Shown in pieces: positions 12,688 to 17,777 of a stretch of 43,108 nt of DNA. How positions within the stretch are numbered: position 1 is the stretch's first letter; every line of letters starts with the position of its first letter. This DNA is from Candidatus Geothermarchaeota archaeon. GTDB lineage: Archaea; Thermoproteota; Nitrososphaeria; Geothermarchaeales; JDFR-13. The notes below the pieces were generated by a model. It worked only from the letters and a program-made list of their open reading frames with translations, had not been told where the DNA came from and searched no databases. Location of the stretch: NCBI GenBank assembly GCA_015523725.1, contig WAJV01000060.1:1-43108 (forward strand). Reading direction: 5' to 3'. The position numbers were made by a program, and so were the translations under genes.

Positions 12688-13317
12688 TTATTCCATAGAT
12701 ATCTTATATTTCATTTCATTTGCTTTGATATGTGCTAGTCTCGTAGGTTCGGGGATACTGTTTCTCAGGACATGCTTAACTATTTCTATGGCTGATTCTA
12801 ATGATACTCTATGCCCTATTGATATGTATAGTTTCGGGGAGAATTTATACCCCACCCTCTTATTGTTGACGTGAATATAGCCGTCTTTATCGACCTTACC
12901 GACTAGAGGTGACTTTGCAACTCCTATTGTGGGTAGGTTTAGTACTACTCCTAGGTGAGTAGCGGCTCCGAATCCTCTTGGATGTATTAATCCATGTGAA
13001 TCGACTAGAGTTATGTCGGGCTTTATTTTTAGTTTTAGAAGAGCTCCGGCCATGGGCCATATTTCCCTAAATGCTAGGTATGTTGGTATATATGGTACTT
13101 TTGATTCAACTATATATACTGAATAGGTTAGGGGCTCTACTTTATCATAGTCTAGAATATATGCAACCCCTATTGCATATTTTTTCCTATAAGCTACATC
13201 CACTCCAGCTATATATTTAATTGGTTTGTTAAACATGTCTTTGGTTATAACTAGTTCAGATAATTTTCTTTGAAGGTATGCGGCTTTTTTGAGATTTAAT
13301 CGAACCATGTTTATCAA
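12688..13317 (-). CDS. nfi: Endonuclease V
   Basis: YIAGVDVAY, PYIPTYLAFREIWP, TLVDSHGLIHPRGFGAATHLGVVLNLPTIGVAKSPLVG; catalytic acidic residues present. Likely start at the second Met (13308). Confidence 0.94.
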   Translation of the reverse strand: MINMVRLNLKKAAYLQRKLSELVITKDMFNKPIKYIAGVDVAYRKKYAIGVAYILDYDKVEPLTYSVYIVESKVPYIPTYLAFREIWPMAGALLKLKIKPDITLVDSHGLIHPRGFGAATHLGVVLNLPTIGVAKSPLVGKVDKDGYIHVNNKRVGYKFSPKLYISIGHRVSLESAIEIVKHVLRNSIPEPTRLAHIKANEMKYKISME

Positions 13318-13390: not shown

Positions 13391-14119
13391 TTGAGTGTGG
13401 TGATGACTTTGATTAGGGTTAGGGTTTATGGCTCGCTGAGGGATTTGGTTGGGAAGCCTTACATCGATATAGATTTAACAGAGGCTGATTTAAGAGAATT
13501 GTTTAATTATATAAAATTAAGGGATGGTGGCTCGTTAGCCGATTATATATCGGATGGTGGAGATATAAAGAGGCCATATAGGGTTTTTATTAATGGTAGA
13601 CGAATTCCAAATGAGGATGGATTGATGGTTAGAGTCAAGGACGGTGATGAGGTTGTACTGACACCCCCTGTATCGGCTGGGGGTGGTATGGTAGATATAT
13701 CTGGTAAAGAGATTATATATAGAGAAGCTATGGCTCGTGGAAGGATTAGACTTAGACGAGATACTATTAAATTAATTAGGGAGAAAAGGGTTGAAAAGGG
13801 AGATGTGTATGAGGCTGCTAAGATTGCATGTATTAATTCTGTAAAATCGACCCCCAATATATTGCCTTATTGTCATCCCATTAATATCACACACATAGGT
13901 TTTGACATGGATATAGAGGATGAATATGTGGAGGTGTCGGTTACAGTCAAGGCGTTTGAGCGAACTGGTGTGGAGATGGAGGCTCTCACTGGGGTGGCGG
14001 CCGCATTATTAACTATATGGGATATGGTTAAGAAATATGAGAAGGACGAGTCTGGTAACTATCCATATACGGTGATTAAAGATATCTTTGTTGTTAGAAA
14101 AATTAAGGGTGGTCACTAG
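13391..14119 (+). CDS. MoaD-MoaC fusion (molybdopterin synthase small subunit + cyclic pyranopterin monophosphate synthase)
   Basis: Residues ~5-98 are MoaD/ThiS-like ending DGDEVVLTPPVSAGGG; residues 100-242 are MoaC (MVDISGKEIIYREAMARGRI...NSVKSTPNILPYCHPI...TGVEMEALTGVAAALLTIWDMVKKYEKDE). No stop codon between them. Confidence 0.92.
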   Translation: MSVVMTLIRVRVYGSLRDLVGKPYIDIDLTEADLRELFNYIKLRDGGSLADYISDGGDIKRPYRVFINGRRIPNEDGLMVRVKDGDEVVLTPPVSAGGGMVDISGKEIIYREAMARGRIRLRRDTIKLIREKRVEKGDVYEAAKIACINSVKSTPNILPYCHPINITHIGFDMDIEDEYVEVSVTVKAFERTGVEMEALTGVAAALLTIWDMVKKYEKDESGNYPYTVIKDIFVVRKIKGGH

Positions 14120-14121
14120 GT

Positions 14122-14646
14122 ATGCCTCATGAGGAGGCTAATATTGGGTATACGCCGAAAGTAGGTGTTGTGACAATTAGTGAGAGCAGATATATTAAGT
14201 ATATGCGGAATCTGCAATATAGCGATCCTTCGGGGGATCTGGCTGAAAGAATACTTCGGAATGCTGGATTTAAGGATATAGTTAGGGAGTTGGTTGGGGA
14301 TAAAGACTGGTTGATCATCAACACCGTTAAAAAATTGGTTAGGCGAGGTTGCGAGTTGATATTCTTGATAGGGGGAACTGGTGTATCGAAGGGAGACGTG
14401 ACCAAAGATGCATTGGAGTGTATGTTGGATAAGAAGCTTGATCTCTATCCTGTAGCATATACATTGGAGTCTTATGGTGATGTTGGGAGTAGGGTGTTAT
14501 CGAGCAGACCTGTAGCGGGTTTCTATGGTGATATTTTAGTAATATCTATGCCTGGGAATCCGGATGCGGTGGAAACTGTTTTAAAGAATGTTCTAAAAAA
14601 TGAGTATATTCATTTATTATGGTTAAATAAATTTGGTAGAATCTAG
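14122..14646 (+). CDS. MoaB/Mog-family molybdopterin adenylyltransferase-like protein
   Basis: KVGVVTISESRY...LIFLIGGTGVSKGDVTKDALE...SMPGNPDAVETVLKNVL; 2 nt after moaD-moaC stop. Confidence 0.9.
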   Translation: MPHEEANIGYTPKVGVVTISESRYIKYMRNLQYSDPSGDLAERILRNAGFKDIVRELVGDKDWLIINTVKKLVRRGCELIFLIGGTGVSKGDVTKDALECMLDKKLDLYPVAYTLESYGDVGSRVLSSRPVAGFYGDILVISMPGNPDAVETVLKNVLKNEYIHLLWLNKFGRI

Positions 14647-14702: not shown

Positions 14703-16565
14703 TTGGTGTTTAATATGGTGCCCGGATATGCTGGTAGACTTCTCCATATTGACCTAACTAAGAATATTGTTAAGAAGATCCGCTTGAAGAAATCCTTTAT
14801 TAAAGAATATATAGGTGGAAAAGGATTTGGAGCTAGGCTTATGTATGACATGGTTCCGCCGAGAATTGATCCATTGAGTCCTGTGAATCCATTAATTTTT
14901 TTAACTGGTCCTGTGACAGCTACGGGGGCGCCTGCTTCGGCTAGGGATGTTGTAGTCACTAAGAGCCCTAAGACAGGCACCTTCCTTGACTCCAACTCTG
15001 GAGGTTATTGGGGGTGTTGGCTAAAGATAGCTGGTTATGATGGCCTGATAATTACAGGGAGGGCGTCTAAACTTAGTTATATTTATATAAATGATGGGAG
15101 TGTTGAGTTGAGGGATGCGAGTGGATATGCTGGATATGGTGTATATGCGACTACCAAAGGTTTGATTAAGGAGGTAGGTGACAATAATGCCAAGGTAGCG
15201 GCCATTGGACCCGCGGGGGAGAATCTCGTTAAATTGGCTGGAATAGTTAATGACCTTCATCATGTACATGCTAGGGGCGGGCCTGGAGCCGTCATGGGTA
15301 GTAAGAATCTTAAAGCCATTGTAATATCTGCAGATCACAGGAATCCTAAATTTGATTTAGCTGATAGAGACGGATTCAATAAGTATAACCTGAAGATCAT
15401 TAGGGAGGTTGTGAGGGGGCCACCTGAAGAGTGGGCTAGAACTGATGGAACACCGATTATAGTTAGATGGAGTAATGATGTAGGTGTATTACCTACGAGG
15501 AATTTTCAAGTGGGTGTATTTGAATATGTGGATAATATAGATGCGGAGGTTATGCGTAGTTTTAGAACTTCGAAGGGGGCTTGTTACCGATGCTCCATAG
15601 CCTGCAGGAATTTAACTAGACTTAAGGATGATAAATGGGGTGAGATTGAACTAGATGGACCGGAATATGAGACGATAGCGATGGGTGGCTCAAATACTGG
15701 TGTAGGTGATTTTAAAGCGATTATTGCATGGAATAATTTGGTTGACGACCTTGGTATGGATACGATATCATTAGGTAATGTTACTGCATTGGCTATGGAG
15801 GCTTATGAAAAAGGCTATATAGATAAAAATATTACCAATGGATTGGAATTGGGTTTTGGGAATATAGATGCCCAGATGGAATTGGCAAGGATGATTGCAT
15901 ATAGGAAGGGTATAGGGGATATATTGGCAGAGGGAGCTAGAGAGTTCGTTATGTGGCTCGGGGGAGATGCATATAAAATGGCTTTGGAGACTAAAGGCTT
16001 GGAATATCCTGCTTATGACCCTAGGGGTAGTGTTGGGATGGCATTGGCATACGCTACGTCTGATAGGGGAGCCTGTCATTTAAGGGCGTGGCCCATTGCT
16101 GAAGAGGCTTTTGGTGATATGGATCCATTCACCCCGGAGGGTAAGGCAGAATTGGTGATTAACATGCAGGACTTAAATGCAGTTAAGTGGAGTATGATTT
16201 TCTGTGATTTCTTGGATGCAGATTATGAAATGATAGCTAATTACTTCAATTATGTAACTGGTTTAAATTATAGTGCTGATACTATGAGGTTAATAGGTGA
16301 GAGGATAAACAATTTGATTAGGCTCTTTAATGTGAGGGAGGGTTTCAGCCGCAAAGATGACTACATACCTTACAGGATAGCTCATGAAAAGATGCCTAGG
16401 GGACCAAACAAGGGATTCAGTGTCAAGCCTGAGATTTTCAATAAGATGTTAGATGATTATTATGAATTGAGAGGCTGGAACCGAGATGGTGTTCCGAAGA
16501 AGGGTAAGCTACGACGTTTAGGATTATATAAAGACTTTTTCAAGACTAATATACACTCAATGTAG
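14703..16565 (+). CDS. AOR-family (tungsto)pterin oxidoreductase, aldehyde:ferredoxin oxidoreductase-like
   Basis: 620 aa; YAGRLLHIDLTKN, GKGFGARLMYD, TGPVTATGAPASARDVVVTKSPKTGTFLDSNSGGYWG, CYRCSIAC, DRGACHLRAWP, late Cys in SMIFCDF. Start may be ATG 14715. Confidence 0.95.
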   Translation: MVFNMVPGYAGRLLHIDLTKNIVKKIRLKKSFIKEYIGGKGFGARLMYDMVPPRIDPLSPVNPLIFLTGPVTATGAPASARDVVVTKSPKTGTFLDSNSGGYWGCWLKIAGYDGLIITGRASKLSYIYINDGSVELRDASGYAGYGVYATTKGLIKEVGDNNAKVAAIGPAGENLVKLAGIVNDLHHVHARGGPGAVMGSKNLKAIVISADHRNPKFDLADRDGFNKYNLKIIREVVRGPPEEWARTDGTPIIVRWSNDVGVLPTRNFQVGVFEYVDNIDAEVMRSFRTSKGACYRCSIACRNLTRLKDDKWGEIELDGPEYETIAMGGSNTGVGDFKAIIAWNNLVDDLGMDTISLGNVTALAMEAYEKGYIDKNITNGLELGFGNIDAQMELARMIAYRKGIGDILAEGAREFVMWLGGDAYKMALETKGLEYPAYDPRGSVGMALAYATSDRGACHLRAWPIAEEAFGDMDPFTPEGKAELVINMQDLNAVKWSMIFCDFLDADYEMIANYFNYVTGLNYSADTMRLIGERINNLIRLFNVREGFSRKDDYIPYRIAHEKMPRGPNKGFSVKPEIFNKMLDDYYELRGWNRDGVPKKGKLRRLGLYKDFFKTNIHSM

Positions 16566-16622: not shown

Positions 16623-17777
16623 TTGAAGGTAATGGTTATTGGAGTTGGTAATGTAGGTAGAGTGATTATCAAAGATTTGTTGAGTTATGGAGATAAGATT
16701 GATAATGTATTAGCTGTCGATTATAGATATGATGTATTGGATAAATTGGCTAAAGAGATTAATGATTCGAGGCTCGATATTGCTAGGGGGGATATTAGGG
16801 ATATAGATACTATGTCTGAATTAATGAAGAGGGTTGATGTAGTGGTAAATAGTTCTTGGTATGAATATAATTTATATGCAATAAAGGCCGCTATAAAGGC
16901 AAAGAGAGATTTGGCTGATCTTGGCGGGCTATATTGGATGACTAGAAAAGAGCTTGAGATGGATGAGGAGGTTAGGGGAGCCGGGATCACTGTATTAATC
17001 GGCGTGGGCGATGATCCAGGTACATCTAATGTATTAATAGCATATGGAGCATCTAAATTGGATGAAGTTGATGAAATTCACATAAGGTGGGGTAGTCACT
17101 CCGAAACGGAGGCCACACCCTTCGGTTTCAGTGTATTGACTGTCTTGGATGAAGCCACGATGCCCGCTGTCTTATATCTCAATGGTAAGTTAGTAGAAGC
17201 ACCTCCACTCAGTTACCCCGAGATCACCTATTTCCCGGATCCAATTTCATACAAAAAGACTTATGCAATTATTCATAGTGAGCTTGCAACTATACCTTAT
17301 ACGATCAAAGGTGTTAAAACAGTTACATATAAAGATACGTGGGATGATGATTTCTTACCCATTATCAATTTTATGAAGAAAATAGGCTTGACTTCAAGAG
17401 AGCCAGTTAAGATTAATGATTTTGAAATATCGCCACAGAAATTCTTAGCATCACTGACAAAGCCAGGTGAGCCTAAAGATATAATTGGATGCCTTAAGGT
17501 TGAGTTGAAGGGATATAAAGACGGTGTAGAGACTATAATACGTTACTATTTGGGTCCAGTCGGATATCATGAGGAGTGGGGAGCCGGTGTTACAGCTTAT
17601 ACTACTGGCGTGGGTGCTAGTATAGGCGTACAGATTCTAGGGAGCGGCGGTGTAAGTAGTAAAGGAGTTGTTCCCCCTGAGTTAATAGATGAGCCTAGTT
17701 TATGGCTTAAGAACCTGGCGAAGCGGGGAATACCGGTTAAGGAGGAGGTAGTTAAGATCGGTGAAGTGATGATGTAG
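16623..17777 (+). CDS. Saccharopine dehydrogenase-like / L-lysine dehydrogenase-like oxidoreductase
   Basis: N-terminal Rossmann KVMVIGVGNVGRVIIKDLLSYG, VVVNSSWYEYNLYAIKAAIKAKRDLADLGGLYWMTRKELEMDEEVRGAGITVLIGVGDDPGTSNVL. TTG start. Confidence 0.85.
   Translation: MKVMVIGVGNVGRVIIKDLLSYGDKIDNVLAVDYRYDVLDKLAKEINDSRLDIARGDIRDIDTMSELMKRVDVVVNSSWYEYNLYAIKAAIKAKRDLADLGGLYWMTRKELEMDEEVRGAGITVLIGVGDDPGTSNVLIAYGASKLDEVDEIHIRWGSHSETEATPFGFSVLTVLDEATMPAVLYLNGKLVEAPPLSYPEITYFPDPISYKKTYAIIHSELATIPYTIKGVKTVTYKDTWDDDFLPIINFMKKIGLTSREPVKINDFEISPQKFLASLTKPGEPKDIIGCLKVELKGYKDGVETIIRYYLGPVGYHEEWGAGVTAYTTGVGASIGVQILGSGGVSSKGVVPPELIDEPSLWLKNLAKRGIPVKEEVVKIGEVMM

Follow-up and report, generated by a model that had tools for sequence, protein, structure and literature searches.

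A MoaD–MoaC fusion in a family of Nitrososphaeria whose MoaD-like domain may be a lasting module of MoaC

A single uninterrupted frame at positions 13391–14119 (forward strand) of the window, the 43,108-nucleotide stretch of Candidatus Geothermarchaeota archaeon DNA analysed here (contig WAJV01000060.1, assembly GCA_015523725.1), encodes a MoaD/ThiS domain and, immediately after it, MoaC. Sequence comparison indicates that this fusion is conserved in relatives and kept by purifying selection, that its MoaD tail is altered, and that alternative MoaDs with free ends are encoded in the same genomes. Our preferred reading, held with confidence evenly balanced, is that the protein is a MoaC with a permanently attached, lineage-specific MoaD-fold tether or docking module and that the MoaD domain is not an ordinary sulfur carrier in the window's genus. 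We infer that the domain stays uncleaved, carries no sulfur and serves for docking, and we place this above the possible but less probable alternative of a sulfur carrier released by processing. The source is a deep-branching, probably thermophilic lineage of the Nitrososphaeria (the habitat is presumed). The features of the locus are as follows.

12688–13317, reverse strand: endonuclease V, the divergent upstream neighbour (Pfam Endonuclease_5), which marks the same locus in relatives
13403–14119, forward strand: MoaD–MoaC fusion gene, stop codon at 14117–14119 (open frame, ThiS and MoaC domains, fusion kept in five relatives)
13403–13681, forward strand: MoaD/ThiS beta-grasp domain, residues 1–93, ending PPVSAG (Pfam ThiS, TIGR01687, PDB profile matches, AlphaFold2 pLDDT)
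13676–13681, forward strand: canonical Gly-Gly position, here Ala92-Gly93 (alignment with 96 other MoaD-like rows)
13682–13687, forward strand: linker Gly94-Gly95, variable in relatives (GG, SG, YGG, NGG, G)
13688–14116, forward strand: MoaC domain (cyclic pyranopterin monophosphate synthase), residues 96–238, starting MVDIS (PF01967, NF008999, TIGR00581)
14122–14646, forward strand: MoaB/MogA-like molybdopterin-binding protein, next in the apparent operon (Pfam MoCF_biosynth, 60.5 bits)
14703–16565, forward strand: tungsten-type aldehyde:ferredoxin oxidoreductase family protein (Pfam AFOR_N and AFOR_C; conserved order)
16623–17777, forward strand: saccharopine dehydrogenase-like protein (Pfam; conserved order)

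Read from the ATG at 13403 the protein has 238 residues. The TTG at 13409 or this ATG is a more likely start than the TTG at 13391, and 13409 appears the likeliest, since relatives begin at the equivalent residue and GGTG stands 6 nt ahead of it. Pfam ThiS (PF02597) matches residues 6–91 with 28.2 bits (cut-off 22.5) and Pfam MoaC (PF01967) residues 96–236 with 157.6 bits. The MoaC part is a full-length match over the curated cut-off, also scores above the cut-offs of NCBIfam NF008999 and TIGR00581 (equivalog level) and carries the motifs K..CHP..TGVEMEA..WDMVKK; none of the five fused proteins aligned has lost an active-site motif, which bears out the view taken of the MoaC catalytic residues in an earlier, sequence-only reading of this DNA. 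As expected of an archaeal MoaD, the other part gives a beta-grasp match above cut-off (TIGR01687 moaD_arch, 53.9 bits against 49.5), a cut-off that the MoaD domains of two relatives, G002 and G003, do not reach, and its profile matches solved MoaD and SAMP1 chains in the PDB. It does not have the free C-terminus of an archaeal MoaD, running instead in frame into MoaC. An AlphaFold2 model, made from an alignment of fused and MoaC rows only, has two folded domains (pLDDT of the MoaD domain mostly about 80–90, pTM 0.61), and the linker is predicted to be flexible at residues 91–94, where pLDDT falls below 50. Such a modelled join would fit either a tether or a processing site.

The fusion is found in six of the 11 genomes of the family, belonging to three genera: the window's own (G000, the genome of the window, with G001 and G002), a second (G005 and G008) and a third (G003). 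The search for this architecture in related archaea that the sequence-only reading proposed has thus yielded five further genomes, and the single-frame fusion that it described stands, by its open frame, its Pfam and NCBIfam domains and the recurrence of the join. The remaining five genomes have a separate MoaC, that of G010 being only a contig-end fragment. In each of the six, the fused MoaC is the sole MoaC found; in G008 a scaffold gap breaks the MoaC part, and the join was read as far as that gap. Wherever it is readable, the gene order is shared (endonuclease V, moa(D)C, moaB), with the AOR-family and saccharopine dehydrogenase-like genes following in most. No further MoaD–MoaC fusion was found among 398 sampled Thermoproteota genomes (294 with a match), nor in a GTDB contig scan as far as its listing of the best 80 of 526 relatives went, where the G002 contig alone matched over the full length. 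Long N-terminal MoaC extensions in family f14 and others proved to be read-through in an unrelated frame and not MoaD. All of the data come from metagenome-assembled genomes, that of the window being 1.43 Mb in size and 72.7% complete, so that an indel or other sequencing or assembly error might be suspected of having erased a stop codon that separated two genes. This explanation, which had been raised for the window, we regard as ruled out for practical purposes: the identical in-frame join occurs in five relatives from separate species and genera, including G005, whose genome is a single 1.58-Mb contig.

The canonical end of the MoaD in the window's chain is residue 93 (PPVSAG, codon 13679–13681), a placement on which two NCBIfam models (TIGR01687 and SAMP1), the profile hits to MoaD and SAMP1 structures and the spacing from the conserved Gly-Asp all agree, the C-terminus of canonical MoaDs lying 11 residues past this pair (GD+11). 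The natural end that had been proposed, PPVSAGG, is therefore out of register. Since the canonical end is residue 93 and the leaders of unfused MoaCs in the family end in G-M (MSKG-MVDI, MPG-MVDI and PEG-MVDI), the two glycines that follow PPVSAG in the junction SAGGGMVDISGK are linker and MoaC leader, Gly95 being the counterpart of the Gly that precedes Met in the unfused proteins. The joins of the six fused proteins are:

PPVSAG-GG-M: G000 and G001
PPVSAG-SG-M: G002
PPISAG-YGG-M: G005
PPISAG-NGG-M: G008
PPVVGG-G-M: G003

The catalytic Gly-Gly that the sequence-only reading took to be buried at GG|GM is present there in only three of the six (G000, G001 and G003), which rules this out as a conserved cut site; the tail of G002, PPVSAGSGM, has no Gly-Gly in any register. 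At the penultimate position of the canonical register, 93 of the 96 other MoaD-like rows have Gly, MoaD–MoeB and MoaD–MoaE fusions included, while the fused rows have Ala in five of six, the window among them, and Gly in G003 alone, the only one with Gly-Gly in this register. The position five residues past the Gly-Asp (GD+5), shortly ahead of the tail, is hydrophobic in 94% of the 96 rows but Thr or Gly in all six; we take it to be the equivalent of E. coli MoaD Phe75, which contacts MoeB and MoaE. All six keep the last canonical Gly (Gly93), and PP[VI]SAG is common to the five fused proteins of two genera. These five Ala-Gly tails probably go back to one change in a common ancestor and are therefore not five independent observations. 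A Gly-Gly is not lost simply by being buried, because MoaD–MoeB fusions of the same class retain an exact ..AVAGG|S; the MoaD–MoaE fusions examined likewise have an exact GG in this register. The G003 protein (L202:6286–6999) has a second Gly-Gly at its own C-terminus (..KDVVGG), which is not conserved in relatives.

In pairwise comparisons of both domains, synonymous change far exceeds replacement, the synonymous sites being mostly saturated; for the close pair G005–G008, dN/dS of the MoaD domain is about 0.07. Judged from these substitutions, both domains are under purifying selection and the MoaD domain is not decaying. The case that had been put forward against a function for the fused domain, that another standalone MoaD with a free Gly-Gly does the work while this one is degenerate, holds in one half: every fused genome also encodes one or more standalone MoaDs that end exactly in a free GG, and the fused tail is indeed altered, but at this dN/dS the domain is not degenerate. 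The tree gathers the fused MoaD domains into a single clade, with the AOR-linked MoaD that these genomes also encode as its sister group (supports 98/90 and 96/92, the latter for the sister relationship), and this placement dismisses the idea that the fused domains are orthologues of the MoaD linked to moaE in the unfused genera. The sister type (TIGR01687, type B) differs from the fused one in being a standalone gene with a GG end, in G000 directly beside an AOR gene; the GG end is free in four of five genomes, the G001 copy being extended by ITPSQPT. Terminal branches in the window's genus are 0.31–0.42 in the fused clade against 0.08–0.20 in the AOR-linked sister.

A single origin would account for these features, in which a MoaD of the AOR-associated type was joined exactly at its canonical C-terminus to a short MoaC leader, a join (PPVVGG+GMVDI) still visible in G003. 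Later changes in the window's genus and in the second one would have turned Gly-Gly into Ala-Gly and the hydrophobic contact position into Thr, and would have inserted one or two variable residues at the join. In the Ala-Gly lineages the MoaD domain would stay joined to MoaC by a flexible linker and serve it as a tether or docking module. The MoaC part would be the cPMP synthase of the cell, because the genome yielded no second MoaC, and sulfur would be delivered to MoaE by ordinary free-GG MoaDs encoded elsewhere.

The rest of the pathway can be traced in the same genomes. All six have a lone MoaE gene whose active-site region (..PPIFKKE..) looks intact, that of G000 lying near a contig end so that what precedes it can be seen only in part. 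This MoaE groups with a type from other families of the class; the MoaE of the unfused genera is a different one, encoded in a moaD–moaE pair whose genes overlap, and the moaE-linked MoaD of these genera is absent from the fused genomes. E1-like MoeB/ThiF proteins are present. Three genomes have an exact GG end on the moaE-linked MoaD, and in two others (L118 in G007 and L120 in G004) 15–21 non-homologous residues follow PPVSGG. Genes for MoaD-like proteins that end in SPRALFV(V/L), without Gly-Gly, lie immediately upstream of a GG-ending MoaD gene in G009, G004 and G007 (L181, L182 and L183, respectively), and it is possible that these are non-catalytic partners of the adjoining MoaD.

The main competitor to a permanent tether is that a JAMM/MPN+ protease cuts past the MoaD tail (SAG93| or GG|M), freeing both a sulfur carrier and a MoaC with its native N-terminus; we consider this possible, though doubtful. 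A JAMM1-type protein with an intact E..HSH..PS..D motif is encoded in five of the six fused genomes (G000, G001, G002, G003 and G005), and among solved chains P. furiosus JAMM1 is the closest to it (E 1e-18). None was found in G008, and JAMM proteins occur in 111 of 120 genomes of the class, so that their presence has little weight and was dropped as a discriminating test. In the family proteins (L216:4367–4771, reverse strand, and relatives) six residues separate HSH from the motif Ser, compared with seven in P. furiosus JAMM1. Precedent for processing exists, as HvJAMM1 cuts a linear SAMP1–MoaE fusion exactly after Gly, making it active and restoring MPT synthase (PMC4443979), and the activity of MoaX depends on cleavage (PMC4326299). 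Also in its favour are the several standalone MoaDs of the family with non-conserved residues past GG (VWDGYF, WLWI, DS, VY and L), which would agree with tail trimming by some protease, the lack of a moaE-linked MoaD in the fused genomes, the canonical GG|GM kept in G003 and the invariance of Gly93. Against it, Gly-Gly is at no constant place (AG in the canonical register in five of six, no GG at all in G002), a tail cut before Met would be 1–3 residues beyond canonical length, and cleavage by HvJAMM1 in vivo was not observed without GG (PMC4443979). In MoaX both glycines are required for activity, and G81A, at the penultimate Gly, blocks cleavage (PMC4326299). By analogy with these two systems, G003 could be processed classically, and the Ala-Gly proteins of the other two genera would make poor substrates; it is for this reason that we favour a permanent tether in the Ala-Gly lineages.

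The tethered reading has its own difficulties. The invariant Gly93 and the shared PP[VI]SAG exceed the needs of a free linker, an intact-motif JAMM1-type protease is encoded in most fused genomes, and loss of the hydrophobic position may weaken binding to MoaE or MoeB too, which would tell against a docking role.

An in-frame ATG does lie at 13688, as the sequence-only reading claimed, and it might additionally yield MoaC alone, so that two forms coexist. Every fused gene has this in-frame ATG where MoaC naturally begins, and the Gly codons give a G-rich stretch upstream. We think this unlikely: the GGTG is 2 nt from the ATG, compared with 6–8 nt at the fusion start and moaB, and the fused genes share no conserved G-rich motif ahead of it (G002 has GGATCTGGT). 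Nor could it provide a route to a free MoaD, since there is no stop codon after MoaD. A programmed frameshift freeing MoaD was likewise rejected, the +1 and −1 stops lying at no conserved distance.

Fusions of MoaD and of MoaC are each known already, and we found no report of the pairing of the two. A 2024 survey of archaeal fusions contains MoaC–MoaC, MoaC–MoaE, MoaC–MoaB, MoaD–MoaE and MoaD–MoeB but not MoaD–MoaC (PMC11237513), an analysis of Ubl proteins in archaea from 2010 makes no mention of MoaC (PMC2948915), and the papers searched contained no report of such a fusion, in agreement with the earlier view that the arrangement is not known to have been described. Among the nearest relatives in design are MoaX and other MoaD–MoaE fusions (M. 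tuberculosis, D. radiodurans, Thermoproteales), which likewise have an N-terminal MoaD whose Gly is buried by a partner from the same pathway. They differ in that the partner is MoaE, here a separate gene, and in that MoaX keeps its Gly-Gly and is cut at Gly82|Ser83, whereas the fusion described here has MoaC and, in most members, Ala-Gly; the encoded JAMM/MPN+ protease of G000, a feature shared with MoaX-type systems, is not specific. In the MoaD–MoeB (Ubl–E1) proteins of Nitrosopumilaceae, of the same class, the partner also follows right after the tail of an N-terminal MoaD, but all those read have an exact ..PAVAGG|S and the partner is an E1 enzyme. MoaC is joined to another cofactor protein in MoaC–MoaB, MoaC–MoaE, MoaC–MoaC and human MOCS1AB, the last being a MoaA–MoaC fusion that is cleaved to free the MoaC part (PMC9607355).

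Other sulfur-carrier fusions were seen in the sampled genomes. A ThiS-like domain ending LLPVVSGG is fused directly to an NcsA/TtuA-like PP-loop tRNA thiolase in G007 (L184:660–1820, reverse strand) and G004 (L185:1170–2447, forward strand), joining a sulfur carrier to its own sulfurtransferase; in the two other genomes of that genus the carrier is a separate ORF of 67–68 residues with a GG end. G007 also encodes a ThiS-like domain ending TYVSGG (match just below the Pfam cut-off) fused to an 8-oxoguanine DNA glycosylase (L190:883–1773, reverse strand; Ogg-HhH, 161.5 bits), with a similar ORF in G004 (L192). In G034 (L301:1808–2386, forward strand) a Ubl with HGG before the join is fused to the KEOPS subunit CGI-121 (match under the Pfam cut-off); a Cgi121–Ubl fusion was reported earlier in Thaumarchaea (PMC2948915).

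The MoaD–MoaC protein pairs a carrier with the enzyme one step upstream in cofactor synthesis. Somewhat short of an even judgement, we suggest that the MoaD domain is a permanent, non-sulfur-carrying ubiquitin-fold module of MoaC, or else a carrier with an Ala-Gly end, which in these deep-branching Nitrososphaeria tethers cPMP synthase to the next step of the tungsten/molybdenum cofactor pathway. The intact Gly-Gly of G003 and the Ala-Gly of the other two genera form a natural series in which a buried tail may be cut, tolerated or abandoned. If the MoaD domain works uncut, the rule of a free Gly-Gly would fail for some MoaD-fold proteins.
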